Of a DNA stretch of 64,000 nucleotides, positions 13,446-34,403 are shown piece after piece; the first letter of the stretch is position 1, and each line of letters starts with the position of its first letter. The stretch spans positions 1-64,000 of the forward strand of contig NW_026683308.1 in NCBI RefSeq assembly GCF_030247195.1, written 5' to 3'. The notes beneath the pieces were generated by a model that saw nothing but the letters and a program-made list of their open reading frames with translations, was not told the origin of the DNA and made no database searches. Position numbers and translations under genes: made by a program. This DNA is from Topomyia yanbarensis. Taxonomy: Eukaryota > Arthropoda > Insecta > Diptera > Culicidae.

Positions 13446-14323
13446 TCGAGTTTATTTTCCGAATCGCTTGTAAATGTGTGTGTGTTTGGTTTGTATCGAT
13501 TGAACCTACACGCAGAAAAAATCAGTTAACAAAATTTTCGTTTTAACGGACCACTTCACAATAAACTGTGAATATTTACTTACTGAATATAACGATTTTT
13601 TCACCGCCCTTACGGCGCCTACGGCGTTCAATTCAACACCTAAAAAAGAGCATAGAAAATATTTTAGAATGAATATAAAATTAATTCATTCATTCTTGGC
13701 AAAGATTTCCTGTCCAGAAAACTAAAGGCCTAGTACAGATTGCAATGCCATAGTGTTACCTGACGCTGCAATTCTCTGGCCAGTTTTTCTAAGCCTCTAT
13801 CAAATAGATAGTACTCCACTTACCTTGATCCCTTTGTGACACCCAAAGAAAGCTCTTCAAGTCAGCAGAATCCACCAAAAAGGCCCTTGAATCGGAATTT
13901 CCTGTCCGAAAGTTTTATGAAAGTAACCCTTTGTTTACATTCCTATCGGCAACGCTAAGGAATTTGTCAAAATTTGCGCACACTGTGTGCATTTTGTTGT
14001 AATGTGGTCAGAATTCAATATTGAATCCTTTGAGACATATATTTCGAAACTTTATTAACTTTATACATGGACCAATGCATCGACAGTACATTTTTTTATG
14101 AAAAAACAATTTTGATGCGTATTTTTTTCGATTTACGTTCAACTAATGAATGAAACATGCCGATATAATTGACCATTCATGGTTGATGGTTTGTTACAGT
14201 GTGCAAACACGTTTCATAAAAATTATATCACATGGCCATCTACCTATAGTTTCGCTTATTTGTTGACATACTTTCATCGCTGTTAAACGGTTTATCTAGT
14301 GAGCTAACTGAAAAGGGATTATA

Positions 14324-14722
<399 letters not shown>

Positions 14723-14738
14723 CACTGTACCAAAATCG
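14723..14738 (+). repeat. Left terminal inverted repeat of the CACTA-like element
   Basis: CACTGTACCAAAATCG; partner at 28054-28069. Preceded by TA. Confidence 0.75.
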
Positions 14739-15237
14739 AAGAACGAATTCAAATGATATTTAATATGACCCGGCCCCTTAACATTAGGCAGTTGTATTTC
14801 GGATGACTGCCATTTTGATTATTGTCAAGCTTCATTTCGGCTGTGTAAGCAAGATTCAAATGGTACGCATACGGTAATTAAATGTAAGCGTTTTGGAATT
14901 CAAAGGAGAAATTGTTTGTGATTGAAACATATTCATTCATTATTCAATAGCAGAATTTTGGGATTTGAATAGATAATCAATTATTTAGTATATGTAGTTA
15001 ATAAGCGACACGAACTACTTTCATTGCAAATTTGCGTGTATGTCATCAAAAAGTTGATTGAAAGTTGTTCAAACGACAACCTCATGTAGTACGTTTTAAG
15101 TAAGTGAATCTGTTCAATCGACGAATATTCAAGGAGCTTGTTCATTATATTTCTGTCGTCCCGAGGTAATAACCAAAAGGGCTAAGTGAAACCAATATTT
15201 TGAGATGTTTCAATGTGATTTATTTAAATACATTAAT

Positions 15238-18122
15238 TTATATAAAATCCTTATACATATATAATTTTCTTCTGAAAAAAATGGAATTTCCAATATGCTC
15301 TAGAAGAAATGGAGGACCATCAAATATGTTTAAATCTAAAATACTCTTAAGGTCAAGCTTTATATCTACAGCGTAAGCTTGATAATGTTCATCATAATGT
15401 TTAACTCGCCAATGGTGGGCGGCTACGAACCATGTATTTCTATGATTAATGCATTCTATTATCTCATATAGTTCTACAGTTGTATCTACAGTAACTGATA
15501 AAAAACTACCTGTCTTGTAGATTGTATTTTTGTACACTCAAAAAAAAGTAAACGTTATGCCTATTGATTTTACACATAGATTTTTGCAATTAACGGAGGC
15601 ATATAGACACTATTTGCTGGCACATAAACCTAATGTGTGTATTCACAAGAAATATTAATCTTACATTCACATTTCATAACTATTAGGCACATAAAACCCC
15701 ATTCTATAATAATATGCACATATAACTTATGTGTGTGCATACATAGTTTATACAGTTGACACATAGAAGGTATGTGTGCGCGTGATAACAATAGCATTTC
15801 TTCTTCATATGAATTTTAAGCGGTTTGAAGCAAATAGAATTAACGTTTGGATTTCTTTCAGTGTACGTTAGTGAGTCACATGACAACACTAGTTCGTTAG
15901 CATCGATTTCGATTGTACTTAGCAAGTTGGTTGTTGCATACGGTTTTGTACACCATACGCTTTCTACAAATTTTCCATCGGTCTTGGTTTGTAAAAATGT
16001 TTCATTTATAACATCATAGGAGAAGAAAAGACTTGCTTTAATACACATTGTAAGGCAAACGTTTTTTCGAGAAGATGTTACATTGAAATATTCCTTGAAG
16101 TCGCGATGACGGGCTTCGTGTCTTATACAGCACATTTTTTTTATTGGTCCGCTACTTCTAATAACGCTAGCGTAATGGTTTAGAAAATGATGTTTAGGTT
16201 TCAAACTTTTTTTAAACAAATGTTGGTATAAACGATGATGCTCGCTAACAAGACAATTCAATAATTCCAAATCTTTTTCTGAAAAAGCTGGCAGGTTTAT
16301 TGTATCTATAAGTTTCATCAAAGTGGTAGTATAATGCCACACTGGATCTTGCAAAGGAACAAAGGGTCCGCATATGAATGAAAAGAAGTTGCTGAAGGCA
16401 GCCATTTCACTAGCTGTCATTCTTAGTGTTATCGATTTAATTCGTCTGTTATCTTCTAAATCTGGCATTCGTGATAAACCTTCCTCAAACTTGAAATTGT
16501 TAAGTTCTTTTCTGCGCATATTCATCTGACTGATCGTACAAAACTTCCTCTCGTGAACGATATAGCTAATTATTTCTGTGAAACCATACATACACACTCC
16601 GGAGCTATATAAATCATGCATACTGTCGCAATATAAATTTTCAACAACGCTATAAGACGGCAATGTATTGAACAATGAATATCCTGTTAATCCGGAGTCT
16701 GATTGCTTTAATTGCACGTCGGTATGATAATTATCTTTATTCCTTAAATATGTTTCGTACTCTATAAGATCTTTACTGAGTTGGTCTTTGCTTCTTTTGC
16801 AAAACCTGCAATAAAAATTAGCAGAAAATGAACCTGAAAATTTTAACATTTGGTGAATTCCTAGGTTATCTCCTTGTATTAACATTAATGCGAAATGTAC
16901 TTTAACATTTGTATTCCCTGTGGTAATAAGAATTCCATTCTGTTCTATCGCTTTCATCTTATCTATTATATATATCATAAACATATCAATATCATGACCC
17001 GAAAAATCAATTTTCCTTATCACACCAGCGACAAAAATGTTTGAAAGCTTAGCTGCGTAGCGTTCCGGTATCGTCGGGAAACTGTAATACATAGCGAACA
17101 ACGAATGCCTCTTGTTATGAGAACTGAGCGGATCGTTGACCTCGAACTCATCTCCGTACAAAAATAGTGGTATCAGAAGCCTTCCCGGATCTTTTTCTTG
17201 CACTTTTCTATAAACCGAACCGTTAATAAAATTACTATTTTTCACACTTGTCGTTAGTAGTCGCATATTTCTAATTGTTTTCTCGTAAACCTGACCGTTT
17301 TCAAAATACTTTCTGATTTGAAATTCCAAATCCATAAGAACCAAATGTGATTGGTTTCCCAAGCTTTCTAATTCTAAATCAACAGCTAAATTGATTTTAT
17401 TATTGTGTATTGTATATACTTTAGGTATTTTAAACAAATCGGCCTGTTCAAGGTACCTAAACAGTTTATGCTCAGTTCCTATGAAATCAAACAGGGTCGA
17501 TATCTTGTTCACGAAAGTTTCGTATAGAAATGTTTGGTCTGGGTCTACCGATGCAAAAAGTGGCGTTGATGTTTTGATTATATTTTGGAGATAACTATTT
17601 ATAGTTGTAACGGCATTCTGTATATCCACGACATCCTTACGGGTCAAATTACGTTTTCGATGTAAATCAAGTGAAAAGTTTACCGCCAAACGATCAATGG
17701 CAAGTAATGATTCACATATGTAACTCTGATCTCTACCACCAGTTGAAGGCTCGCAATCAGTAGATTCTTCGATGGAGTTCGCCTAAAACAAATAAAATGC
17801 GTGATTAAATAAAGAATTTCATTTTCTCATTTTTTTTCAATACCAATGGCGTCGTCCTTTTATGCTTTGCGATATTATCTACTGATCGATTATAGTTGAT
17901 TTCAGTGTTAGAGTGTGTATCTACTGAACGAACGTGAGTTATGATGTGACGATGGAACTTATATAAATTGGACATTTTCTGAGTGCAGTCTTGGTATGTA
18001 CAACGTAGTTTTAGTGGTTTGCTTAAGTTATGTGCTTTAATGTGTGTAATGTAAACAGTGGTATCTTCAGCATATTCATCACAACCCTCAACGAAACATT
18101 TGAACTGGTCACAACGCTGCAT
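15238..18122 (-). CDS. C2H2 zinc-finger / tnp2-like transposase, 3 exons, 830 aa predicted
   Basis: Exon 1 (17844-18122) starts MQRCDQFKC and holds two C2H2 fingers, C-x4-C-x12-H-x3-H, at residues 9-31 and 40-63. Exon 2 (15845-17782) carries the large domain, with GDNLGIHQML near residue 397, ANFYCRFCKRS near 419, CDSMHDLY near 481 and RHEARHRDFKEY near 648. Exon 3 (15238-15513) encodes the tail with YDEHYQAYAV. Layout and motifs match zinc-finger plus transposase-domain proteins widespread in mosquitoes, cnidarians and fish; the conserved D, D and E in the named blocks are candidate catalytic residues of an RNase-H-fold transposase (inferred). The exon 2 donor (AAC/GTTAAT) is weak and could be misplaced. 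The start lies 29 nt after the stop of the accessory gene, with no acceptor between. Confidence 0.8.
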
Positions 18123-18151
18123 CGCAGAGTTTCTTCAGATCTTCAATACCT

Positions 18152-21100
18152 TTATATTTTGCGGGTCTTGAAATATTGTAGAGTTTCTTCGATTACGTAC
18201 CACACTAGCTTCGTAATTTTCGAGTATGGAAGCTTGAATACGTTGCACAGTTTAATTATTACATCAATAGCACGAGCAAGTGAATTGAACTGATAGACGA
18301 TGTCTTTGAAAATGATGTAAAAATCTCCGCTCAACGCTGTGTAGTCTGTTCCAATAACAACCACCTTAGGATGTGTTGGAATGTTCTTGGCAGCGTAGGT
18401 GTCAAGTAATTCACTAATCGATCTTTTGGCAGATTCTAAATCGTTCGCAAAAACAAACACATCTTCCTGTGCTGTTAAAATCGATGGTTTGAAAGTTTTA
18501 GACACTTTGCAAGGCTGGACGCAGCAGTTCAATAGCATCAACGTACAACAAATTAGCGTATCTGAAATAATAAAATAATTAACATTCATTAAAAAAATGC
18601 ATCTGTTTAACTAGTTAACCATCACCGAGAAAACAATAAAGCTTTTCTGGCAGATACAATATAATGCTTTCGGTGGCGTCTAAAAATTTGTTTTGGAGAA
18701 AATATTTCGTAGTGGTGGTTGATTCAATTCGTTGGTTTTTTTAGAAAACTTCTATTCAAATGACTCGCGGATCAACTATTCTAAATGGTCTAAACAAAAT
18801 GAATGATTTACTGTGCAGTATTGGGCGATATTGTATCGATACATCCCAGTTAAGTTCAGACGAAAAATGAACCGGAATGCTGGCTGGTTCCAGTTCGCAT
18901 TCCGCCTCCAGTGACACAACCGATTCTATAGTTCGGTTGTGTCACTGGAGCCGGAATACTAACTAGAACTAGCCATAATTCCAGTTCATTTCCGGGTGAA
19001 CTTTACTGGGATATAATATCGATAATTCGGAGCCAGAATCAGGGTTGCCAGGTAATATTTTGTGAAATCTGTGCGCAGCCTATGTAAAAATCTGTGTTAT
19101 GGAATACGTACAAGTTTGTCTCAAAACAAAAAGTGGTGACCTTTTTTTAAGTTTTCGCTCGAGGCAAAAATTAAGTGCGCGGTCGAAAATTGAGAGATCT
19201 GCTAGTCTGTGTATTATAACAGAAAACTGGTAATCTTTGCATTTAAACAGAAAACTATGGAAATCTGTGCAGCATATTGAAAATCTGTGAAACACAGATT
19301 GATCTGTGCACCTGGTATCCATGGCCAGAATATAGAGACTTTATAAACGGGCCTTACACGATCAATATTTTTATCAATACTAGGGAGTATTTACGAATTT
19401 CGCGCCAACTCGAACAAATTTTGGCAGCACCCTCTCAGATTTTAATGAAACCTTCTGTACATGAGAACTTTGTTACAAAAAGCCACTTTGCATACTTTGT
19501 TTTTCCAAAAATAATCTAAACTGTCTTTTAAAAAGGGTCAAACTTTTTTTACCAATTTTTTTCAAATGGCTTTAGACTAAAAATGACAAATCCTACAAAA
19601 AATGTTGTATGAGTGATTTTCACAAAATTAGTTAAATTTTTGAATAAAAATATTGAAACAATTTTTCATCGACTCCTACACTGAAAAAAACAATTTTAAA
19701 AATTTAAGGTCAATTTACAAAAAAAAACCATCTTTGATTTGGATGAAATTTTGTTCCAAGATAGGTAATTACGTTCCCTACCGTCAAAAATTCAAGATGG
19801 GCACTTTCAAGGAAAAAGTTATTTGAAAAAACTTTTCCTTGTCCTAATCATCAAAGAATCCAATTTTCCAACTGCTAGTTGCCAGTATTCCAAGTATTCC
19901 AAATATTACAAGTATGCAAAGTCTTCCAAGTATTCCAAGTATGCTATGCCTTCCAAGTACAGTCGTGATTCGTTGGTTGGGCCACAGCCTATGTCCAACT
20001 AACGAATTTAATTCGCTAGTTGGACCGACTGACAAATGTCAAAAACTCTCCAAAGAAGGCATTAGTAGTGTAAAAGATTGTTAGATAGATTGTCAAAGTC
20101 AATTTGACATGAGATTTTGACGTTCAGATGCTTTTTAGTTGGACAACGGTCCAACTAGTGGAGGTCCAACTAAAAATTTAAGAGTTGTGTGCAGGACACG
20201 ACCACGGCGACATTGAAAATGTAGTGTGCAATATAATTCGCGGCGTCGGCGGTAAAACATGATGAGTTATGTTCTATCAACGACCATGTATTAAACTTGG
20301 GTTGAAAGCCCAACTTCTACCAGCAGAAGCCAATCGATTCTTTACATTTCCTTTCGATCATGGCCATATGAGCCAGCCTAGTCCTAGTTTTACGTGTTAT
20401 GTTTATAACTGATTCGCTCTAGAATACCTATTTTTCAATTTCATTGCTTTCGCTTCTCTTAGTCTTAAATTTGCCGAAAACAGCCCACAAAATCAATACA
20501 ATAATCGAATTATCGCACGTTTACTCTCTTCACGGATATGGTCGGACAAAGTATTCATTTTGTCGAGTAGTCGTTGACGACCGGGTTGTCAAACATCAAT
20601 TGAGTCATTTGATGCCAACGAAACGTGCACATATTTTATGTGTTTGGATATAAACCCGTATTAATCTATATGAAATGGAAAAAAACAGCGTTATATTTTA
20701 CGAATACTTCAAACATTTTACATTGTGTGTCATCATATTAAAAGTATGTACAGTTTTTCCACACATATATGAAAGCTAAAAAGAACTACTTAGACAGTGC
20801 GAAACCACGCATATAATATGAATTCATTTAAAAAAAAAATTATTGCGTATTTAAACAATTGCTTTGAAACCTACTTTTGTTGAGTCGATAAGGTTCAACT
20901 TCAAGTTAAATTACAATATATTTCTTTCGTTTTGTTTAAATGACTTAAAACTAGCGAATATTTGTCACGCTTCGATTTTCGCTTTACCATTTCGATCAAT
21001 GCATACCGTTTTAAACAATAGCCAGTACCGTGCCAGGGGCCATGTATAAATGACGTAGTACTTTAGGGGGTAGAGGGGTGTAGCAAATTTAAGACGAGGG

Positions 21101-24100
21101 GGGATATTGTGACAAAATGTTACGAGGGGGAGGGAGGGGTCGAAATTAGCCGAAAAAAAGCTACGTCATTTGTGTATGGCCGCAATGGGTAGGGTTACGA
21201 TATGGGTCGAGCTAACTAGGGCTCAACATTTTCGGTACGCACAAATTTTAATCTTTTATGCGGAACGAGTACCTAAATAAATCGAAATGAGCAAGAGAGT
21301 GTGCCGGTGTAAATACACCGAGTTTCAAGGTGTTCCACGAAGTTCAAAACAATCGGCTTTCCAAATTTGTGAACCGTCGATTTGTTTTTTGTCAGTTTTA
21401 AAACTCTAGTGCCGCAAAAAGCAACGCGGTACTAGATTCATCGCAACGGCATACTGACTAGCACTGAGACTGAGTGCCGTAACTCTCCAGTTGTGGTGTG
21501 CAAAGTAGTACACAGCGAACTTCATAATTTAAATTTATCTGTCACCTACTGCTATCGTCTGCGCTCCGAGAGCAACAACCCCAACAAGCAACAATGCCCA
21601 ACTTGAATTTTTGACGGTAGGTAGGGAACATAATTACCTATCTTGGAACAAAATTTCATCTAAATCAAAGATGGGGTTTTTTGCAAATCGACTTTAAATT
21701 TTTTAAATCGTTTTTTTTTCAGTATAGGAGTCGATGAAAATTTTTTTCAATATTTTTATTCAAAAATTTGACTAATGTTGTGAAAATCACTCCTACAACA
21801 TTTTTTTGTAGGATTTGTCATTTTTAGACTAGTCATTTGAAAAATATTGGTAAAAAAAGTTTGAACCTTTTCAAAAGACAGTCTAGATCATTTTTGGAAA
21901 AACAAAGTACGCAAAGTGGCTTTTTATGACAAGGTCTTCGTGTACAGAAAGTCTCATTAAAATCTGAGGGGGTGCTGCCAACTTTGAATACGATTTAGCG
22001 CGAAATTCAGTGACAAAAGTAGTGAATGTAATAGAACATTGCATTGTGACTCTCAGATCAAAAATTAATACTCTGAAAAAAGAATCAACGAAAGCTCTTA
22101 AATTTACTAACGATCTCCTTATATTCACCGTTATTTTTGTACTTAACTCATTTACATTAGCATTTTATTATGCAGTTTTGACAATCAGGCTTGAGGATAA
22201 TTTGTCCTGTGTCTTTTTGCAGTGTAGATATTTTATTTTTGAAAAAGATACTTGTACAAAACTATTGCAAAACCTCCGTATCATTTTGATTTAAGATTAA
22301 ATGAATCTGTAGAGAATTAATATTTTTTCTTTTATTTGCAGACAATAAAGAGACAATGCAATGATGTTTACTTGCTAGTCGAAATCAAAGTCCTCCAATA
22401 TATACTGAAACAATATTAACCAGTAAAATGACAACACCGTCGAAAGAAAAAGTTAACAATAGAGGTTATCTCATTGGCATTTAGGACCATTTGACATATT
22501 TGACTAGTTTTGGTAGTTTTGCTGTTTTCAAAAAATGGTATTGAAATATCAATATTCTAGAGCGTTTTTTCATTACATCATATCTAACAGAAACGTCAAA
22601 CGGAGAAAATCGCGTGCAAAAATTTCCTTGCGACTTTTAAATTTATTTAGCAATTTAAGCACACAGAAGGCTATTAATTGTACTACCACCTCTGCAATTA
22701 CTCATTGCAGGATCGTATAAGCATATTACATGTTTTTCGCGAAGATAATAGGGAGATAATTGATAACTATTTTTTTATTACATTTGGCCGATCACTATTA
22801 TGCTCTTTTACATATGTGGTCTTGGCAACACCATTTGTATATGGCACATTTTACTGTGACGTTTTGAGAGACGGGTTTGTAGTTGTGATATATTTCATGT
22901 GCTGTATTGCAACCGAGAGTGTAGATATGAGGTTTGGCATTGGAAAAAGATGCTAACTACAGTCGACTTGAAAAACATCACAACGCAAAACATCACATCT
23001 ACATAATGTTTGCAAAACTTTGGTATAGTATATGTGACATTTTGACTTAAGATTAAATAAACATGTAAAGAGTTATTATATTTCTCTATTATTTGTGGAC
23101 GATAAAGAGTCAATGCTTAGCTTTTATTTGGCATAATAAACTCAGTTTGTTTACATTTGTTAGATATGACGTTTTGAATAAACGGTATAGTATTATGTAT
23201 CGATTCAATATCGCCCAATACAATTTTACAGTAACAAGAAATTTGTTCCAGTACCAGGAAAAACAGAAAGTAGCTCGGCTCCAGTGACACAACCGATTCT
23301 AACTAGAATCGGTTGTATCCCTCGGAGCCGGTGTACGAATTGAAACCAGTCAGCATTCCGGCTCATTTTCCGGCTGAACTTAACTGGGCCGGAGTAAAAA
23401 GGAGCTGCTGAGCAAGAGGACCAATAAGCGTGTACTGGAACAAACCTAATATTCAAAAGCTTTTTTTCAAAACGTCATTTAACATTGAGTAAATCTTTGT
23501 TTACTTTCTCTTTCCATTTTTGCGGCTAGTACTTTCAACTAATTTCACAGTACAGATCGAAGGACGATGATTCTTAGTAGCATATTATACAGAGTTGTGG
23601 GGCAAATGTTAGTGACCGAGTAATTAACAAAAGAAAGTAAACAGTCTCATTGTTAGAAATATTTTGAAGAAAGCTGTTGTGTTGTGATTTTAGCTGAGAG
23701 GTCAACTGCTGTTAAAAAAATATGAAACAGGCCACACTGACTCTGTTTCGGGGATAAACAAAACGGCATTAGATTAAAATGTTTACCTTTTGTAACGTTG
23801 GCTCGATTCATGTGCTGCAAAATTGCGATGGAAAATTCATCCTTGACTTTAAGTATAAAATACGGTTTCATTGACGATATCACTCCTTCCCAACCAAGAA
23901 TTCCTTCGGTGTATCCTAGTATCCGATAATCTTCATCCACCTTTAAGAAAACAGGTAAACCTATTAAATAAAATTTATGCAGTATGCATTTGGTATAAGG
24001 CCGTGATTCTCAGAACAGTTTCATTTGCTAAGCAATTCCTATGTAGGTGGGAATGTTATGCCTATCACGGCAGTATACATTATATTTCACATAAACAATT

Positions 24101-27100
24101 CAGAAGCTGCTCTAGAACGTTTAAAAATGATATCGACATGACATAAATTGTTTGGTATAATACTCACGAGTTGGTATCCTAAATCATTGCAATAATGTCC
24201 GTATTTGGCAATCACAGCATCGAAACGAAGAGTTTTCAAATCCTTCAAACGACATTCGGCACTTATTATCCAGTTGCTAAGTACCAATTCCCATGGCCGT
24301 TGGTTCAGTTGCAGCCATCGACAGGCCTGTAATGAACGTTGATCTACTTCAACGGCTACTTCTTTTTGTAGTTTCTGTTGGTGACGTAACTCTCTTTGTT
24401 CTCGATTTCTTGCAGCGTATTTCAATTTTCTATATGTCTGACATAACAAACCACCTGGATTTCTTCTCTCTGGAGGAGCAGATGGGATATAATAAATAAG
24501 CTGAAAATGTACCAAACCGATTAGTATATAGGTAACGAGAAATGCAGTAAGAAGTAATGTGACACGCTGAGTTTCGAACATATAAAGCTGTACGCACACG
24601 AGGCGACAGGACACACGCCACAAAAAATATTCACTATGGATTTTGTTGTACCTATACCAACGCGGCAACAGCAACATCGTTGGAATAGGTAGAACAAAAT
24701 CCATAGTGAATATTTTTTTGTGGCGTGTGTCCTGCCGCCTCGTGAGCGAACAGCTTAATTACTTTCATGGATATCAAGATCTAACTTCATATATTGAAAC
24801 TCAAGTCTAGTATACTTCGGGGGTGTAAATGATTAATTACCTTATCCTGCACTTCCCGTGGAAATAAATGCATGATGCATTCTGTGTAATTTTGTAACTC
24901 GACTTTCGTTAGAGTACTTTTATTCAGTCCATCACAATCGTTTAACCAGCTAATGTGGTGATGAGCAATGATTTCGCTGAGTTCCTTTTTGCTATCTTTC
25001 GATAACGTGCCACGATTGGCATTCTGTATGATTGCTGAACCAACTTTCGTGGCGCTTAAAAGATTTTTCAACTTGTTCGGTGTAAAAAATCGGCCTAAAG
25101 TGCCACCACGAACCGCTCTACCGGTGCTCCCTGTTGCCTTTGCTGAATGTCGCGAGAAATCAATGGCCTGCGAATGTAAAATTAACACTTACTAAGTAAA
25201 ATGCGTTTTACACGATGTCGGCCTTGTTCCAGTGAAACTCGCGCACACAATACCAACGGCATGGAAAGGGGCCCATATTATTGGCACGAATCAAAACTCG
25301 TCGAAATGTCAATTGGCGATAGGTTCATCCGGAGTGTTCATTTGTGTTTACATTTTGCTAGCGTTGCCAATTTCATTTTGATTTCACTACCCAATGTGGC
25401 TACGCCACATCGCTTTTGCGAGTGCTGTCCGACTTCGCTACCGCTCAGTCGGACTTAAACTAGGGATAGCCCCTATGTTTGAGTAAGCCGGGCAAACGAG
25501 TGGATCACAGGTTCGCTAGTACATCTTAAACAGAGGTTCCTAAAGGGTATCGGATGGTTACCGGAACCCAGTAAAGTTCAACCTAAAATGTGCCGGAATT
25601 CTGGTTGGTTCTAATTCGTATTCCGGCTTCGGCTGAAGCCGCAATACGAATTAGAACCAGCCAGCATTCCGGCTGAGCTTAACTGGGAAGTTTCCTAATA
25701 TTTAATCTAGGAAATAAAAATTTTCTGGCAACGCTCCAGCACCCCGTTGAACTTTTCACCCCTTGGGTATCAGTTTGACGCTACGGAATGAACTTTGTTT
25801 ACTTTCGACAAGTTTTGATTCGTGCCAACAGTGTTTGCCCCATGGAAAGTGTGGACCAAGGTGTTTAGAATTCTAAGGTGATTCGTTTTTGGCAGTAACT
25901 AGGTGAGAAGTGAGGTAAGCGTGCAACTGCGAGGGTGAAAAATGACAGCAAAAAAACTCTGTGTGCAAACTGAAATTCAAGCAATCCGAGACGAATGTTT
26001 CATCACTAGTAACTAGTAAACAATGTTGTTTGCGGTCGCTTTTAAAACCAGCATGACTGATCGGTGTTTTAGATAATCGTATCACCTGAGAATAAAAGCT
26101 CCTTGGTGTGGACGTTCGAAACATATGAATGCGCGTACGAGAAATGCATTCAACTTATCCTGACGGAACGTGCCGTTGGTGTTCTATTCCATTGAAGAAG
26201 GTTAATTCACACGATAAATCTTACTTAGAACAGGACTCGCAGATTTTTGAATATACTTGTGTGCTCTTATCATTGTCTAAGCGATGATATAGAGCATATT
26301 TTTAAAAACTTTATTGATTTTTTCAACACAGCAAATTTGTGAGATTAATATGATTTTTGCTTGTGGCGACACTAATTCTAACCCCACCCGCTGAGCTGAC
26401 AGTAGTTGGGGCTAAAATCCGATGCAGTATCAGAGCATAGGTAAAACAGCACACATTTTCAATTTCTTCCAAATAAATATAATTTCGTTTTTCGTCGAAA
26501 GCACCGGACGGGGTTTGAACTGCTTTATTACTTTCGAGAAAGGCAGTCTTCCAATGTATTTCAATGAAAAGCGACATAATGTTTATGAGGGAGATATTAT
26601 TTTCGTAACATTCTTCTAACATGTAAAATATACCGTAACGAAAGAGATTACCTGTCCAGACGACTCAGCGGTATCTGATGATGATGATGATGATTCACCG
26701 AAATCGGAAGATGCATTATTCTCTGTGTTAATCAAATCCATAGATGTTGAAGTTCGTTGTGGAGTGCGTTGTTTTGGTAAATCTGTATTGCTCAGATCTC
26801 GAAAAACGGTTCTCCGAGCATTTCCCAAGACATTAGCTGATTCTTCCAAAGAGTCTTCCTGGCAGTGCAATGACTGTTCATTCTGAGGAAGAAAAGTATA
26901 ACAGTTATTATTTATGATATATTTGCAGTCGCGCACACCAGTGATCGGTACTTGGGGTATGATACTAGATCTAGTATCAACAAATTAATATTATTTTTTA
27001 TTACCAAATCCGACTCAGGGTCAACAAAATTTGTACTTGCATCCTTCGGAAGATCTGTTGGTTGGTCTTTAGTCGAACCAGCTCGACCGGTGCTATGCAA

Positions 27101-27723
27101 ATCCTGCGAAAAAAATGACGTATAATTACGTTTAAGGTTCAAGGATGCTTGAAACTAAACTTACGTCTGGAGATTGTTGGTCATCATACACCAAAAAGCT
27201 GCATTTGTCCATTTGCGGAATGAATGGCGAAGACAATCCCTATGAAAATTTAAGAAAAGAAATCTCGTTAAACGTAACGTTTTCTCAAGCATTTTCTGCA
27301 CAATCATTCACTCAAATGTTAAAGCAATCGGAAGTAACACACATGGAGGAGGAAAAGCTATTACCGGAGAACTAAATGAATAATCCAAAAAATCCTCAAA
27401 GGACCAATTTTGCGTCTATAAATAATGTTATATTAAACTTACCGAATTATTTTTCCAATCAGCAATACGACTGCAAATGAATTCACCATCAACTCCTTGT
27501 AGGAGGTCGGACCATTCTTGTGCCGTCATGCAGAAAAACTTTTCCGCTGGTATATTGTTATCTGAATAAATGGAATTCGTTTCAATAAAAACATGCTCAT
27601 GTTCATATGCTTTATTTATATTTACTTACCACTTATTGCAAATACAATTCGCACTGGTAGCTCTAGTTGGTTCGCAATTTTTAATAAATGGTTGAAATTT
27701 TGGTCGATAATGCGCAATTCCAT
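18152..27723 (-). CDS. Nine-exon accessory protein of the CACTA-like element, 613 aa predicted
   Basis: Exons: 27630-27723 (starts MELRIIDQNFNHLLK), 27443-27561, 27165-27239, 27005-27103, 26652-26882, 24841-25167, 24168-24500, 23787-23940, 18152-18561. All junctions are AG/GT and the total of 1842 nt is 614 codons including the stop; every phase agrees. Exons 1-3 form a small N-terminal domain with FFCMTAQEW and SFLVYDD. Exons 4-5 are acidic, Ser/Thr-rich and probably disordered. Exon 6 has KELSEIIAHHHISWL and LFPREVQ, exon 7 YYIPSAPPERRNPGG and a basic coiled stretch, and exon 9 VFVFANDLESAKRS and KVVVIGTDYTALSG. The same order of blocks occurs in uncharacterised proteins that accompany this transposase type; DNA binding is plausible but not shown. 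The last intron (5.2 kb) is packed with repeats. Confidence 0.8.
18845..19010. repeat. CCCAGTTAAG-family foldback, copy 2
   Basis: cccagttaagttcag on the left and gtgaactttactggg on the right are inverted; the centre is a strong palindrome around gtgacacaaccgattctat. It lies in the last intron of the accessory gene. Confidence 0.7.
19877..19962. repeat. Minisatellite of TTCCAAGTA units
   Basis: About eight imperfect 9-10-bp units of the type ttccaagta(t), followed by an inverted pair gttggtt...ccaacta. Lies in the spacer of the inverted repeat pair. Confidence 0.6.
21037..21182. mobile_element. MITE related to the one at 58702-58961
   Basis: GGGCCATGTATAAATGACG on the left and the inverted GCGGCCATACACAAATGACG on the right bracket a 146-bp G-rich core. 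The plan (GGGxCCAT..ATAAAT.ACGTA ends, G/C-rich core) matches the element at 58702, so the two look like subfamilies. Confidence 0.6.
23276..23388. repeat. CCCAGTTAAG-family foldback, copy 3 (left end missing)
   Basis: The palindromic centre cacaaccgattctaactaga and right end ggctgaacttaactggg are present. The outer left arm is absent. Last intron of the accessory gene. Confidence 0.55.
24585..24756. repeat. Near-perfect palindrome (foldback MITE) in intron 6
   Basis: AAGCTGT...GAGGCGACAGGACACACGCC on the left is repeated in inverse as GGCGTGTGTCCTG and CGCCTCG...ACAGCTT on the right. Arms are about 78 bp with a loop near 15 nt. It lies in the intron between 24841 and 24500. Confidence 0.75.
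25265..25835. repeat. Inverted partner of the repeat at 12838-13445
   Basis: Reads as the reverse complement of 12838-13445 over most of its length and includes a CCCAGT foldback at 25567-25687. It lies in intron 5 of the accessory gene. Confidence 0.6.
25567..25687. repeat. CCCAGTTAAG-family foldback, copy 4
   Basis: cccagtaaagttcaacc and ggctgagcttaactggg bracket a tight palindrome around ggcttcggctgaagcc. Nested inside the inverted repeat unit at 25265-25835. Confidence 0.7.
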
Positions 27724-28053
27724 CTTGATTGAATGCGAGGATATACAAAATGGCGTAATGTATCAAATGTCTGTCATTTGAGTCAGCCCTCAGACTGAAA
27801 ACAGATGTAATGGGAATGATGATCTGTTGACATTTGGAATGATCATCATAAACGTCATAGTTTTCTATTGCTGAATGCAAGCAATACATTTGAAGCTGTA
27901 TTCATCCTTCAAAAATCGGATGAGTGTTCACTCCGATATAAACATCAAATCATTCGATTTGGCATTAACTTGTTATTCGGATGATTACTCTTCGAAAATG
28001 TAATCGTTAGGTTTTCTTGTGGTTCATATGACAAATCATACGCTAATTTGCAA

Positions 28054-28069
28054 CGATTTTTGTTCAGTG
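28054..28069 (-). repeat. Right terminal inverted repeat of the CACTA-like element
   Basis: CGATTTTTGTTCAGTG, followed by TA and then the resumed LINE leader. Upstream bases 27917-27990 hold two CGGATGA subterminal motifs. Confidence 0.75.
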
Positions 28070-28546
28070 TACTGGGCCGACCGGCCCGTGTCATTCACTC
28101 GCTGTGGATGCCGGTCGCGTGTGTGACGGTGTGCTGAACGGGGGATATTTTTGAAGCCGTAAAAAAGTGAAAAGTTTTTAAAAAATATTGAATTTTTTTT
28201 TTACGTTGGATTTGGTGGTATTTGAGATACCAATACAGTGTGTATCAATATTAGTACGGTACAGTGCGTGTCAAAAGTGTTGGAACGGCACAAAAATCAA
28301 AATCGTCAAAGTGCGTTTTTCTTGCTCGTATTACTATCTAGTGGCTGCGTAGAAGCTAGTAAGCGAGCAGATTCATCACTGCGCACCTACAGTGTGTCCC
28401 AAAATTGTGGGAACACTCGTAAACCGTCGACGTTGAGGGGGCAATTAAGGTAGGATCTTTCTTTTTTTGCCTTTTTGCCTATTTGGGGGTGGTACCGGGT
28501 GACCGTGCCAAAGAGTATTTTCCAACGTCTGGTGGTGTAATCCAAG

Positions 28547-29788
28547 ATGGCGGCCGCTAGTAGCGGTGATCCGGGTGGGTCGAGAACGAGAAGACTACCA
28601 GAGTACATGGACCCAACGAACAAATTTGGTGAACTGACATTCCTGCAGCTGACAGGTAAAGACGGTGTACCATTGCCAAGAAACCCGTTTATCATTGGGA
28701 AATCGGTTGAGGTTGCCGCTGGAGGTCCAATTGAAGGTGCGAATACCGAAGCTCAGGGGACACGGTATACCCTTCGAGTTCGGAACCCAGCCCAAGTTGC
28801 CAAACTTATGAAAATGACCAAGCTCATGGACGGTACTGATGTTGTGGTTGAATCCCATCCGAATCTGAACGTAAGCAGATGCGTAATTTCCTGCTACGAT
28901 CTGATTCACTTGGAAGAAAAGGAAGTCTTACAAGAAATTCTAAGCCAGGGAGTGATTCGTGTGCAGCGAATTACACGTAAAGAAGCCGAAAACAGAGTGA
29001 ATACGCCAGCACTCATCTTGACTTTCTGCAAGACCACATACCCGGAATACATGAAGATCGGTTTGCTTCGCGTCCCAACTCGCCCGTACTTCCCAAACCC
29101 GATGCTCTGCTATGGTTGCTTTAAATACGGCCATACGCGTGTTCGCTGTCCTGGCCCGCAACGTTGTCCTAACTGCTCTGGAGAACATCAAAGCGAAGAA
29201 AAATGTCGAGCACCCCAGTTTTGTCTAAATTGTAAAGGAGATCACCAACCAACAAGCCGCCAATGTCCAAATTACAAAAAGGAAGTAGAGGTTATAAAAA
29301 TAAAAATCCGCGACAATTTGACATTCCCGGAAGCGCGCAAACGAGCTGAACAGCAAAATCTAGGAAGTTACGCCCAGGCTGCAGCGCAATCAAATGAGAT
29401 CCTGAATAAATTGAAAGAACTGGAGCAGACAATGAAGAAGAAGGATGAGCAGATCGTTAAGCTTCTGGCAGAGAACAAACGCAAGGACGAGAAACAACAT
29501 TCCGCCAGCCAAGAAAAACCACAGCACAGTAAAGAACAAAAACCAACGAATCAAACTGTCGGGCCAATAACACGATCCAGGAACAACTCACCAGCGATAA
29601 ATACGGACTCAAAACGAGGAAGACCACAGAAACAACAAACCCCGTTCAGCAAACCAACGGCAACCTCACCGGATAACCTAAGCCCACCACCAAAAAAAAC
29701 CGCTGCCACTACCACCAACGAAACTATGGAATATTCAGACGATGAAATTGAGATTACCGAGACGCCTCCTAGCCAGCCTCTTCGATAA
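28547..29788 (+). CDS. I-clade LINE copy 1 ORF1 (gag-like nucleic-acid-binding protein, 413 aa)
   Basis: Starts at the ATG of MAAASSGDPGG, preceded by caag. The N-terminal half is an RRM-like gag core (TFLQLTGKDGVPLPRNPF). Three zinc knuckles follow: CYGCFKYGHTRVRC near residues 187-200, CPNCSGEHQSEEKC near 207-220 and CLNCKGDHQPTSRQC near 226-240. A charged coiled coil at about 285-325 and a Pro/Thr/Ser-rich tail end the protein. The family role is to coat element RNA and chaperone target-primed reverse transcription. The last 47 nt overlap ORF2 in a +1-shifted frame. Length equals that of I-factor ORF1 (about 420 aa). Copy 2 carries 12 more residues in the coiled coil (KIEQMIAYIHQMK region). 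Confidence 0.9.
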   Translation: MAAASSGDPGGSRTRRLPEYMDPTNKFGELTFLQLTGKDGVPLPRNPFIIGKSVEVAAGGPIEGANTEAQGTRYTLRVRNPAQVAKLMKMTKLMDGTDVVVESHPNLNVSRCVISCYDLIHLEEKEVLQEILSQGVIRVQRITRKEAENRVNTPALILTFCKTTYPEYMKIGLLRVPTRPYFPNPMLCYGCFKYGHTRVRCPGPQRCPNCSGEHQSEEKCRAPQFCLNCKGDHQPTSRQCPNYKKEVEVIKIKIRDNLTFPEARKRAEQQNLGSYAQAAAQSNEILNKLKELEQTMKKKDEQIVKLLAENKRKDEKQHSASQEKPQHSKEQKPTNQTVGPITRSRNNSPAINTDSKRGRPQKQQTPFSKPTATSPDNLSPPPKKTAATTTNETMEYSDDEIEITETPPSQPLR

Positions 29789-32700
29789 TTCTCATTTTCA
29801 TCAACGTTTGGATACCAACGACAACCAACGCACGAATACTGACCACGAGATAGATCGGTTTGGAAGAGAGGAAAGTGTAGTACTCCTTCCAACGCAAGCA
29901 CAGCAGGATGAAGGAACTATCCGGGCCGTCATACCCCAACCCGTTGATAGTGAATTCACCTCTGTGGCCGATAGGAACACCGATTTCACCACTACAGCTT
30001 GTAAACCAGCAGACCAAAAACCCACGATCGACGAACAGAAGGAGATCAGCAGAACTACACAAAGTCTATCCCCAGTGCCGACCGCAGTCGGTGTTCGTGA
30101 GCATAATAGTGTAGTTTGTACGACAGCGGTTGGCACTGTGGGGCTGGACCTTCCTCAGGTCAGTTCCGAAATTGTCAATCCCCTTGCAGGTACTGCTTGT
30201 TCTGATGTTCTTCCAGGTGACACGCTCCTTCCACATCACCACACGCTGTCGCCCGGAGAAGGTCCATCGAGATATTCGTTTCGGGATGGAACAGCTGCCA
30301 ACACAACAGTAGCGTCGAAGCAAACATCGAAAACTACACAAAGTCTTTCCCCAGTGCCGGTCGCTGTCGGCAATTCTGGAAGTAATCGTGTAGTAGTTTC
30401 GACAGCGGCTGGCACTGTGGGGCTAGACGTCCCACAGGTCAGTCCTATTCCACCTCGCTTACGAACGGATTCTGTTGCGTTTTATCCTGTTACAGATGTG
30501 AACAGCACGAATCGAACGAGTAACCGGTTTGGGGAAGAAGAGAAGAAAGTAGCTTCCCCACTTCATCATGAAGGGATCGACCGGGGGGAAGAGGACTGTC
30601 CCTACCTCCCGTATATACAGTCCTCGCAATTCTCCTCCTGGCTTTCCGCCGGTGAAGGCACATCACAACAGCAGTTCCAGAACACCGATCTCCCAACCAC
30701 GTCGAGGAACCCTATCGGCGAGCCAATACGATCTCGTAGACGTTCGCCATCAACATCGTCGTCGTCAGCGACAATCACCACTCGCAACAGCAAAAGTTTC
30801 GCACTGCAGTGGAACATTCGGGGTCTGCGCTGCAATATCAGTGACCTTAAGCAGCTGATCGCCCAATACGAACCGAGCTTGATAGCGTTACAAGAAACAA
30901 AGCTGGACAACCGAGTGATCTCAGCAGATTTCGTCGGTAACAACTACACTCTACTACTTGAGACTGGGAGTCGCCGATACTGGCAACAAGGGGTAGGGCT
31001 CGCCATTCGGGATGGTGTACCCTTCGAGAGACTTGAGGTCGGTGGCAATATTCAAGCAATCGCTGTTCGGATACAACTGCCACATCAAATGACGGTGGTG
31101 TCGATCTACGTCCCTCCCAGTACTCAACAATGTCAAGAGCAGCTGGGAGAATTCTTTGAGCAGCTCCCACGTCCGGTACTTGTACTGGGCGACTTCAACG
31201 CGCACCATATCTGCTGGGGTTCCAATAAATCTACTGCACTAGGCTACTTTATCGCCGAGAAAACATTGTCGGAAAGACTAGTCATTCTCAACGACGGATC
31301 ACATACCCGGATTGATCCAGCTACCGGTGTCACTTCAGCTATTGACCTCTCTATCTGTTCTGAAACTGTAGCCTCGAAATTTATTTGGCGAACTCTCCCG
31401 GACACCCATAATAGTGACCATTTTCCAATTCTCGTTTCCACTCCCGGACTGTCACATACTCCAACGAAAAGACAGAAATGGATCTACGACCAAGCGGATT
31501 GGACAACTTTCGAACATCTAACCGCCAGCGCTATTCGACCGGGTGCCGAAATATCAATTGACTGTTTCGTTGACCGTTTGATTAAAGCAGCAAACACTGC
31601 GATACCCCGCACAACCGGTAGATTCGGTCCAAAAGCGGTTCCGTGGTGGTGTCCGGAGGTTAAAGCGGCCATCAAAACGAGAAGAAAAACACTGAGAGCA
31701 CTAAGGCGTATTCAAGCAGAAGACCCACGGAAAGCCGATGCACTAAAACACTTCCAAGAGGCGCGTGCAGCTGCACGAAAGTCGATCCATGATGCCAAAC
31801 AGCGATCATGGGAGGAATTCGTCACGAAGATATCTCCGAGTTCCACTGCGACGGAGATGTGGCAGACAGTGAACAGGTTGAGAGGGAAACGTCAGCATCG
31901 ACCAACTGTCATCAAGCGATCTAGCGGCTACACGGATAAGGCTGAAGAAGTAGCTGAAGAACTGGCACAACATTACAGCGAACGATCCGCCACCTCCAGC
32001 TACTCGCCATTGTTCCAAAGAGAGAAGGAAAAGGCCGAACGAAACCGCGTGAATTTCTCGCCAGATACCGACGATACTTACAACACAGACTTCACTCTGA
32101 ACGAGCTGCTTTGGGCACTCGATAGAGGACGAAGTGGCTCTTCAGGCCCGGACTGCATCGGTTATCCAATGCTTCAGCGACTGCCGTTGTCGGTGAAAAC
32201 TGCCATGTTGGAACTATTCAATAGAATATGGCGTAGTGGCGTGTTTCCACCCTGTTGGCGAACTGGAATCATCGTACCAATTCCCAAGTCAAACTCGAAT
32301 GACGCGGGTCCAGCTGCATTCCGTCCAATAACCCTAACGAGCTGTATGGCGAAGGTTTTCGAGCGAATAGTCAACCGACGGCTGACCACCGAACTAGAGG
32401 CGAACGGGCATCTCGGCAAACGACAACATGCCTTCAGGTCCGGTCGGGGCACTGACACATATTTTGCGGAGTTGGAGAGGTCATTACCCGACCGTGACGA
32501 GCACTGTCTGATAGCGTCGCTTGACTTGTCCAAGGCTTACGATACCACGTGGAGGTATGGCATACTACGAACACTAAAGAAATGGCACATACGCGGTAGA
32601 ATGATCAACGTGTTGAACAGCTTCCTGACAGAAAGATCGTTCCAGGTTAATGTAGAGGGTTACTTATCGCCAGCGCATCCGCTGGAAAACGGTGTGCCAC

Positions 32701-34403
32701 AAGGCTCAGTGCTCTCGGTTACGCTGTTTCTCGTGGCCATTCAACCCATCTTTCGCGTGGTTCCGAACACTGTGAAGATCTTGTTGTACGCCGACGATAT
32801 CCTACTCGTAGTTTGGGGGAAGAAAGACCAGCCGCTTTATCGAAAGCTTCAGTCAGCAGTAAAAGCCGTCCATGAATGGGCAAGAAGTGTTGGATTTACG
32901 ATATCTGCAACAAAATCCAGCACCTTCTATTGTAGCCCTAATGCCCGTCGTGCACCCAGTCAAGCAATCACGATAGATCGAGTTGCTATACCGACAGAAA
33001 CACGCCTGAAAATTCTCGGCGTTACCCTCGATCGATCACTCAACTTCGCAGCGCACTGCAAATTGACGAAGAAGGCATGCGAATCTAGGCTGCGCATCCT
33101 GAAGATGATCGGTGCCAAACTTCCCCGTGGTCAACGCTCATCCTTACTGCGAATTGGATCCGCAATTATTACTTCGCGACTTTTGTACGGTATAGGAATC
33201 GTTAGTAGGGGTGGAGATGCTGTCATCAAAACCCTGGCACCCGCATACAACAAGATGATCAGATATGCATCTGGAGCATACGTCACCAGTCCGATCATAG
33301 CCATTATGGCTGAAGCAGGTACTCTACCGTTAGATCTTCTCATTCTCCAAACTGTAGCCCAATTAGCCATCAGAATGTTGGGAAACAGCAGGGAGAATGC
33401 TGACCTTCCCCTGGTTTGCCGAGCTTCCGAACGTTTGACAGAAATAGTCGGAACTGCTCTCCCAAACATCTACACCCGAACGCGACTATCTGATCGAAAG
33501 TGGTACGACCGCACACCCCAGATCCTTTGGGAAATCAAGAAGCGCGTAAAAGCTGGAGACCCCTCGGGTATTGTTCGTCCAGTTGTTCAAGAGCTCCTGA
33601 CAAATCATCTCAGCCGTTCAACAATCGTCTACACAGATGGCTCGAAAGACGATACCGCAGTAGGCGCCGGAGTTTTTGGAGAACACTTCCAACAGTCACT
33701 TGGTCTTCCACAGCAATGCAGTGTCTACTCGGCAGAGGCATTCGCAATAAAAACAGCGCTAACAACATTCAACACGGTCAGCGACTTAGTAATAATGTCC
33801 GATTCGGCCAGCTGTTTATCGGCAATCGAAGCCGGCACATCCCAGCACCCGTGGATCCAGGAAATTGAAAACCTGCTACGAAATCGTTCAATCAAGCTTT
33901 GCTGGATTCCAGGTCACGCTGGCATCCGTGGCAACGAGGAGGCAGACAGACTCGCTGGAGAAGCGAGGAACATTGCTCCGTTAGCTATATCTGTTCCGGG
34001 GGCAGACGCCGTCAAGCATATAAAAACAGCTATCCGAAACCAATGGTACCGTCGGTGGTCAGCGTCCACTGAAGTAAAACTTCGTGAAGTTAAATTCGAC
34101 ACAGTGAAGTGGACTGACCGCGAGAATTCGGCCGAACAGCGAGTTCTTACCCGGCTTCGAATAGGGCATACTCGGCTAACACACGACTTTCTGCTAAAGA
34201 AAACTTCACCACCAGTGTGCGACTGCTGTGGGATCGTTGTAGATGTCCGCCATGTGATCCTCCACTGCAGAAAGTACGACGACGTTAGAAGGAAGCACGA
34301 CATCGAGTCGACTAGTCTGCGAGCGGCTCTGCGCAACGACAGGAAAAATGAGGAGAGTATGATAAAATTCCTCAGGGAAACTAACTTGTTTAAAATGTTG
34401 TAA
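29742..34403 (+). CDS. I-clade LINE copy 1 ORF2 (endonuclease, reverse transcriptase, RNase H; 1553 aa)
   Basis: The first in-frame ATG (29742) is also present in copy 2. Residues 1-350 are an unusual Ser/Thr/Pro-rich extension holding two related blocks, TTQSLSPVPTAVG..GTVGLDLPQVS and TTQSLSPVPVAVG..GTVGLDVPQVS. An APE-type endonuclease follows (FALQWNIRGLR near 351, LALQETKLDN-type block, GDFNAHH, SDHFPILVS near 556). The reverse transcriptase spans about 800-1100, with FRPITLTSCMAKVFERIV, SLDLSKAYDT, GVPQGSVLS and catalytic YADD near 1014. RNase H covers about 1293-1410 (YTDGSKDD, SAEAFAIKTAL, SDSASC, WIPGHAGIRGNEEAD). A C-terminal CDCCG..H..C zinc motif lies near 1492. No stop or shift is seen. 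The authentic start could be downstream of 29742 if the extension is not translated, but its conservation in copy 2 argues for translation. Confidence 0.9.
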   Translation: MKLRLPRRLLASLFDNSHFHQRLDTNDNQRTNTDHEIDRFGREESVVLLPTQAQQDEGTIRAVIPQPVDSEFTSVADRNTDFTTTACKPADQKPTIDEQKEISRTTQSLSPVPTAVGVREHNSVVCTTAVGTVGLDLPQVSSEIVNPLAGTACSDVLPGDTLLPHHHTLSPGEGPSRYSFRDGTAANTTVASKQTSKTTQSLSPVPVAVGNSGSNRVVVSTAAGTVGLDVPQVSPIPPRLRTDSVAFYPVTDVNSTNRTSNRFGEEEKKVASPLHHEGIDRGEEDCPYLPYIQSSQFSSWLSAGEGTSQQQFQNTDLPTTSRNPIGEPIRSRRRSPSTSSSSATITTRNSKSFALQWNIRGLRCNISDLKQLIAQYEPSLIALQETKLDNRVISADFVGNNYTLLLETGSRRYWQQGVGLAIRDGVPFERLEVGGNIQAIAVRIQLPHQMTVVSIYVPPSTQQCQEQLGEFFEQLPRPVLVLGDFNAHHICWGSNKSTALGYFIAEKTLSERLVILNDGSHTRIDPATGVTSAIDLSICSETVASKFIWRTLPDTHNSDHFPILVSTPGLSHTPTKRQKWIYDQADWTTFEHLTASAIRPGAEISIDCFVDRLIKAANTAIPRTTGRFGPKAVPWWCPEVKAAIKTRRKTLRALRRIQAEDPRKADALKHFQEARAAARKSIHDAKQRSWEEFVTKISPSSTATEMWQTVNRLRGKRQHRPTVIKRSSGYTDKAEEVAEELAQHYSERSATSSYSPLFQREKEKAERNRVNFSPDTDDTYNTDFTLNELLWALDRGRSGSSGPDCIGYPMLQRLPLSVKTAMLELFNRIWRSGVFPPCWRTGIIVPIPKSNSNDAGPAAFRPITLTSCMAKVFERIVNRRLTTELEANGHLGKRQHAFRSGRGTDTYFAELERSLPDRDEHCLIASLDLSKAYDTTWRYGILRTLKKWHIRGRMINVLNSFLTERSFQVNVEGYLSPAHPLENGVPQGSVLSVTLFLVAIQPIFRVVPNTVKILLYADDILLVVWGKKDQPLYRKLQSAVKAVHEWARSVGFTISATKSSTFYCSPNARRAPSQAITIDRVAIPTETRLKILGVTLDRSLNFAAHCKLTKKACESRLRILKMIGAKLPRGQRSSLLRIGSAIITSRLLYGIGIVSRGGDAVIKTLAPAYNKMIRYASGAYVTSPIIAIMAEAGTLPLDLLILQTVAQLAIRMLGNSRENADLPLVCRASERLTEIVGTALPNIYTRTRLSDRKWYDRTPQILWEIKKRVKAGDPSGIVRPVVQELLTNHLSRSTIVYTDGSKDDTAVGAGVFGEHFQQSLGLPQQCSVYSAEAFAIKTALTTFNTVSDLVIMSDSASCLSAIEAGTSQHPWIQEIENLLRNRSIKLCWIPGHAGIRGNEEADRLAGEARNIAPLAISVPGADAVKHIKTAIRNQWYRRWSASTEVKLREVKFDTVKWTDRENSAEQRVLTRLRIGHTRLTHDFLLKKTSPPVCDCCGIVVDVRHVILHCRKYDDVRRKHDIESTSLRAALRNDRKNEESMIKFLRETNLFKML

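Follow-up and report, generated by a model that had tools for sequence, protein, structure and literature searches.

A stretch of 64,000 nt from the mosquito Topomyia yanbarensis (NW_026683308.1, positions 1 to 64,000; hereafter, the window), which is located on contig C87 of the 1.168-Gb assembly searched in this work, probably carries one copy of a 13-kb cut-and-paste DNA transposon with two genes, a transposase and a companion gene just upstream of it. Based on the catalytic motif and the predicted fold, the element is assigned to the CMC clade (CACTA-Mirage-Chapaev, near Transib/RAG1), and not to canonical CACTA elements. In intact copies of the element the companion stop codon and the transposase start codon overlap, and similar junctions are observed in diverged relatives from the same genome. 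Our preferred, tentative reading of the junction sequences is coupled termination and reinitiation, by which both proteins may be produced from one dicistronic mRNA; separate transcripts are about as likely.

The element borders are read directly as TA followed by CACTG at 14723 and CAGTG followed by TA at 28069. The terminal 16-mers match at 14 of 16 positions, and none of 200,000 random pairs from the window reach this score. Searching the genome with the left 178 bp and the right 180 bp of the element yielded 94 and 98 candidates, respectively; 39 of the 40 scored left matches begin at base 1, and 39 of the 40 scored right matches finish at base 180. Of the 40 left ends, 14 can be paired with one of the listed right ends that has the same orientation and lies at most 30 kb away, these being three copies of this element and 11 relatives, many of them approximately 3.8–4.3 kb long. 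TA adjoins CACTG at all eight left-end loci read (seven sites).

The flanks were claimed in a previous sequence-only reading of the window to be halves of one leader of an I-type long interspersed nuclear element (LINE), and genome data agree with this. When the flanks are joined with one TA, LINE leaders cross the junction in 37 of the 40 matches listed (out of 370 candidates), with identity of at least 97% in 30 of these 37, and these element-free leaders carry a single TA; the remaining three matches are broken halves at this locus and on a sister contig, C122. As the rejoined flanks restore an uninterrupted leader, the element was inserted after the LINE had landed here, duplicating TA. 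The LINE leaders crossing the site, together with the random 16-mer pairs, rule out borders arising by chance. The earlier claim of a DNA transposon with defined borders and two spliced genes inside a LINE leader is supported, a second full copy and the joint occurrence of both ends being found elsewhere. The LINE itself (ORFs, open reading frames, at 28541–34403) represents a young family, having at least 30 leader relatives with identity of at least 97%, and the (ATT)n tract beside its start (14318–14471) is of unequal length in C87 and C122.

Two other copies of the element are particularly informative. The sister contig (C122:1–40000) aligns with the window at 99.8–100% identity across all six blocks, lacks a 329-bp miniature inverted-repeat transposable element (MITE) present in the window, and has a 7.27-kb insertion at window position 27812 that is absent from the window. 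C122 could be allelic to C87 or have arisen by recent duplication; in either case, both the MITE and the 7.27-kb insertion are younger than the split between the two contigs. The 7.27-kb insertion (C122:16763–24035) has the ends CACGGAAA...TTTCCGTG, a TG duplication, and a longest stop-free frame of 120 aa. Another full-length copy, of 13,050 bp, is found on the chromosome-scale contig C2 (C2:102343505–102356554), has TA on both sides and no MITE, and is 98.9% identical to the window over the main 12.2-kb block. Directly behind it lies a 2.2-kb right-end piece of the element (C2:102356555–102358752, loci L014–L015), corresponding to window positions 25900–28071 at 98.1% identity, with both the piece and the full copy ending in CAGTG followed by TA; gap-repair slippage, or insertion beside a truncated copy, could have produced this arrangement.

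In both C122 and C2 the companion frame extends past the transposase ATG to a TGA, giving an overlap of 14 nt. Relatives of the transposase are encoded at no fewer than 62 places in the genome; 30 of these loci were fetched, 13 of them having open frames of 816–845 aa without a stop. Three loci (L036, L044, and L049) were not evaluable, and one (L020), that is, the window copy with a 2-bp deletion, was left out; the 26 scored loci constitute 18 families, grouped by near-identical DNA or identical junctions. In 15 families the two frames overlap (by 14, 4, 11, 11, 8, 4, 4, 17, 4, 14, 4, 8, 4, 23, and 34 nt), six of them having the 4-nt ATGA form, and in the other three the frames are separated by gaps of 2, 16, and 8 nt. 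In one of the scored loci (L034), an earlier in-frame companion stop was passed over as degeneration, the gap being 56 nt with this stop and the overlap being 4 nt past it; L045 is degenerate, with internal stops. The transposase frame is shifted relative to the companion frame in one way in nine families and in the other way in nine, and nine transposases compared among families share 38–68% identity.

The transposase ATG has a purine at position –3 in all 18 families, compared to 30 of the 76 additional ATGs located within 400 nt before it; from base composition alone, p for 18 of 18 is about 1e-5, if the families are treated as independent, which they are not. As the transposase frame is closed by a stop 3–39 nt upstream of this ATG in 17 of 18 families, translation of the transposase likely starts there. 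Extended to an entire lineage of RAG1-like (CMC) transposons in animals, coupled expression of the companion and the transposase from one mRNA is put forward with still more reserve. The overlap would then have persisted as the families diverged deeply, with shifts in its precise length and frame like those seen in overlapping gene pairs of bacteria, and transposase output would be tied to translation of the companion.

Several observations weigh against this view of the element, coupled translation included. The TGGGA motif is present in the 100 nt upstream in just two of 18 families, and no known reinitiation signal was found at the junctions; nor do the junctions show unusual folding (mean z of +0.45 upstream and +0.09 downstream). 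The 18 families come from one genome and share ancestry, hence they are not independent, and in one locus (L048) the ATG was chosen by hand, the automatic call giving a 237-nt gap. A sequence profile of the transposase compared to the Protein Data Bank (PDB) gave zinc fingers and no RAG1 among 60 of the 76 rows. Between C122 and C2, the transposase gene differs at 4 of 2,473 positions compared to 77 of 8,820 in non-coding DNA (p = 3.8e-5); as just four codons differ (three synonymous changes, one not), the evidence for selection on the transposase is modest. For the companion, 8 of 1,455 positions differ, which is not significant relative to the same non-coding positions (p = 0.27).

Alternatively, the two genes may be transcribed or spliced separately, from an internal promoter or by splicing out the companion coding part, with the overlap being a leftover of a compact or ancestral layout. 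Plant En/Spm proteins arise by alternative splicing, the public annotation treats the transposase (P0001) and the companion (P0032) as separate genes, and separate transcripts are consistent with the lack of a reinitiation signal at the 18 junctions. Several spliced forms are also described for SmTRC1 (PMC1636069). On the other hand, overlap or near-contact is retained in all 18 evaluable, widely diverged families and in both relative frames, and the element carries multi-kilobase introns, hence there is no pressure for compactness. We consider this explanation possible to about the same degree as one dicistronic mRNA.

The transposase has an N-terminal C2H2 pair (E of 4.5e-9 in profile comparison with solved zinc fingers), followed by the catalytic residues D304, D398, C418-x2-C421, H625-x3-H629, and E649. 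These are kept in all relatives that have letters at the respective positions, that is, in 31, 31, 31, 27, and 26 of 31 relatives for D, D, C(2)C, H(3)H, and E. The best fold match of the predicted model (predicted local distance difference test, pLDDT, of 83.5) is RAG1, followed by BbRAGL and HzTransib; D, D, C(2)C, H, H, and E come in the same order in these proteins, and identity to them is about 10%. A PDB sequence search with the transposase ORF gave nothing relevant. The DDE triad with C(2)C and H(3–4)H between the second D and E, CA...TG termini with a duplication in the 2–5 bp range, and a RAG1/Transib-like fold in the predicted model together correspond to the CMC/CMCT clade. Transib duplications are 5 bp in length, compared to 2 bp here. 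RAG1, likewise, has a partner gene, RAG2, to which any likeness of the companion would be conjectural given the poor structure model of the companion (pLDDT 49.9).

The earlier reading labeled the element EnSpm/CACTA, and the ends of the CAC...GTG type and a weak match to the Transposase_21 profile are consistent with this label. The relationship to CACTA holds in the wide sense, through the catalytic motif and the predicted fold, and strict membership is not supported: both termini are CACTG instead of CACTA, and comparison with element-free LINE copies demonstrates a duplication of TA only, 2 bp instead of 3. The Transposase_21 (tnp2) profile in Pfam scores 17.6 bits on the transposase (P0001), under the cut-off of 28.6, and even at E ≤ 0.05 just three of 31 relatives match. 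A canonical EnSpm/CACTA element is thus unlikely. If it works like other CMC/Transib transposases, the DDE enzyme, with its RAG1-like catalytic core and C2H2 pair, would bind the CACTG ends, then excise the element and insert it at TA, duplicating these two bases.

The companion model of nine exons keeps phase and an open frame throughout, and encodes 613 aa. From exon 5 onward it agrees with P0032 and with approximately 50%-identical proteins of Aedes, Armigeres, Wyeomyia, and Ochlerotatus, while exons 1–4 and the first part of exon 5 find no support in either the homologues or P0032. A Pfam search with the companion and its relatives gave nothing convincing. In the window copy, 2 bp have been lost near the end of the gene, so that its stop is 30 nt upstream of the transposase ATG. 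Short hairpin-like inverted repeats are observed in companion introns (24582–24759 and 25592–25673), possibly representing small nested MITEs.

One more explanation of the junctions is a fused companion-transposase protein, produced through a frameshift or through splicing that bypasses the stop codon. In the predicted, partial record P0029 from Aphis craccivora, a transposase of the same kind and an upstream segment weakly similar to the companion (37 residues, 27% identity, E 0.017) seem to be joined in one protein. The variable frame relation and the stops shortly upstream of the ATG in the transposase frame argue against fusion, which we consider improbable; as both relative frames are used, one programmed frameshift cannot explain the junctions and is excluded.

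In C122 and C2 the transposase gene has two exons and an uninterrupted frame of 830 aa, the products differing by one residue, and this is the length proposed earlier. In the window, where the ORF is identical to LOC131694748 (P0001) over 92% of its length, the frame enters the MITE and stops at 785 aa with a foreign tail. The initial gene models comprised 12 exons joined in phase, which is not confirmed as a whole; the third transposase exon is rejected, being the rest of exon 2 behind the MITE, and its “intron” is the TA-flanked 329-bp insert at 15535–15863, absent in C122 and C2. That the MITE acts as an intron, so that the window copy still makes a nearly complete transposase, is highly improbable: enumeration yields 81 GT/GC-AG pairs restoring the frame, but such pairs are expected by chance and none excises the insert exactly, the interval is seen from C122 and C2 to have been absent before the insertion, and the public model P0001 stops right at the insert. 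Two more MITE copies are located near the C2 element, one flanked by TA and the other by TT; the latter suggests a 2-bp rather than a strict TA target rule, as in CMC elements.

As the MITE interrupts the transposase, the suggestion that the element may still be active fails for the window copy, whose activity is unlikely, and not for the family, whose activity is plausible. The window copy would make no working transposase, yet it could be mobilised by transposase from another copy. More generally, a MITE with TA flanks inside an exon can be mistaken for an intron in a gene model built by eye. Positions of the features are summarized in Table 1.

Table 1. Features of the transposon copy and the surrounding LINE in the window.
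Feature	Position	Strand	Evidence and remarks
Whole element, this copy	14723..28069	-	13,347 bp, genes on the minus strand; borders from second copy, end searches, and uninterrupted LINE leaders
Left target-site duplication, TA	14721..14722	.	Single TA in LINE copies without the element
Right target-site duplication, TA	28070..28071	.	Single TA in LINE copies without the element
Left terminal inverted repeat, CACTGTACCAAAATCG	14723..14738	+	14/16 compared to right end
Right terminal inverted repeat, CACTGAACAAAAATCG on the minus strand	28054..28069	-	14/16 compared to left end
Transposase exon 1 (C2H2 pair)	17844..18122	-	Agrees with public model P0001 (LOC131694748); C2H2 fingers of known structure matched by profile
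Transposase exon 2, with MITE inside at 15535–15863	15238..17782	-	Catalytic core upstream of the insert in reading direction
Nested 329-bp MITE (CACTC...CAGTG), interrupts transposase	15535..15863	.	TA at 15533–15534 and 15864–15865; absent from C122 and C2
Predicted companion exons 1–4 (27630–27723, 27443–27561, 27165–27239, 27005–27103)	27005..27723	-	Splice sites and phase only
Companion exon 5	26652..26882	-	Public model P0032 begins inside exon 5
Companion exon 6	24841..25167	-	Splice sites, phase; P0032
Companion exon 7	24168..24500	-	Splice sites, phase; P0032
Companion exon 8	23787..23940	-	Splice sites, phase; residues in P0032
Companion last exon	18152..18561	-	Stops at 18152 through the 2-bp deletion near 18181; homologues P0032–P0036
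Old inverted repeats, companion intron 8 (18818–18909 with 23195–23388; 19421–19803 with 21595–21981)	18818..23388	.	Found in the C2 copy too, which aligns across this region
Left part of interrupted LINE leader	14500..14722	+	Outer limit approximate; 162-bp stretch from 14561 compared with the genome
Remainder of LINE: leader, ORF1 28541–29788, ORF2 29682–34403 (stop-to-stop limits)	28072..34403	+	

The ends of other relatives vary. Five further relative loci end in CAGTG or GAGTG, read on one side only, followed by TA (L027, L029, and L032), TT (L030), or CA (L033). In the 826-aa family (L040/L041) no CACTG-like motif is seen where homology stops, and one of four 828-aa copies (L028) has no CAGTG at this point. 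A search of viral contigs gave 69 pattern matches and no relative of the element. On another contig, five related left ends are spaced at exactly 3,180 bp (G000:C3:143872647–143885543, L017), with 10 kb being 99.9% self-identical at this lag; hence, a relative of the element is now a tandem array.

The CMCT clade is defined in PMC12730594, which describes ESTA, EnSpm-like elements with TA duplications from rust fungi. Our element shares with ESTA the TA duplication, C(2)C and H(3–4)H between the second D and the last E, and membership in the CMCT clade; ESTA are fungal, and some carry a TET/JBP gene, the comparison being by description. Animal CACTA relatives with a 2-bp direct repeat, 9.2 kb in Aedes aegypti and 5.2 kb in Tribolium castaneum, have already been described (PMC1636069), and large delimited relatives in insects are not new. 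These TRC elements (SmTRC1) resemble the present one in being animal CACTA relatives of several kilobases with 2-bp repeats and Transposase_21 kinship, but their termini start with a CCC core, compared to CACTG here, and the available part of that paper mentions no companion gene that extends over the start of the transposase.

CMC MITEs of wasps and their viruses, as well as ENS1_Cis, also have CAC...GTG ends and a 2-bp duplication, but they are non-autonomous or, in the latter case, from a tunicate, and no two-gene layout is described in the accessible portion of PMC6004678. PIF/Harbinger elements with a MADF partner are two-gene DNA transposons, and a domesticated pair in Anopheles is reported to be on one transcript, but they belong to another superfamily, and the word “overlap” is absent from the text (PMC9710019). 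Searches of chiefly open-access literature, seen in listings and excerpts, for dicistronic transcripts or overlapping stop and start codons in DNA transposons gave nothing on such a layout in eukaryotic CMC elements. As CMC relatives with 2-bp repeats have been described previously, elements of this type are known; what is new is the family itself, the arrangement of its two genes with their overlap, and the history of its insertion.

Since this insect CMC transposon has established borders, has moved recently, and is present in intact form elsewhere in the genome, its excision and insertion can be tested directly. If coupled translation is true, the element would be one of few eukaryotic DNA transposons in which the proportion of the two proteins is set during translation, and the partner of a RAG1-like enzyme would become accessible to tests.

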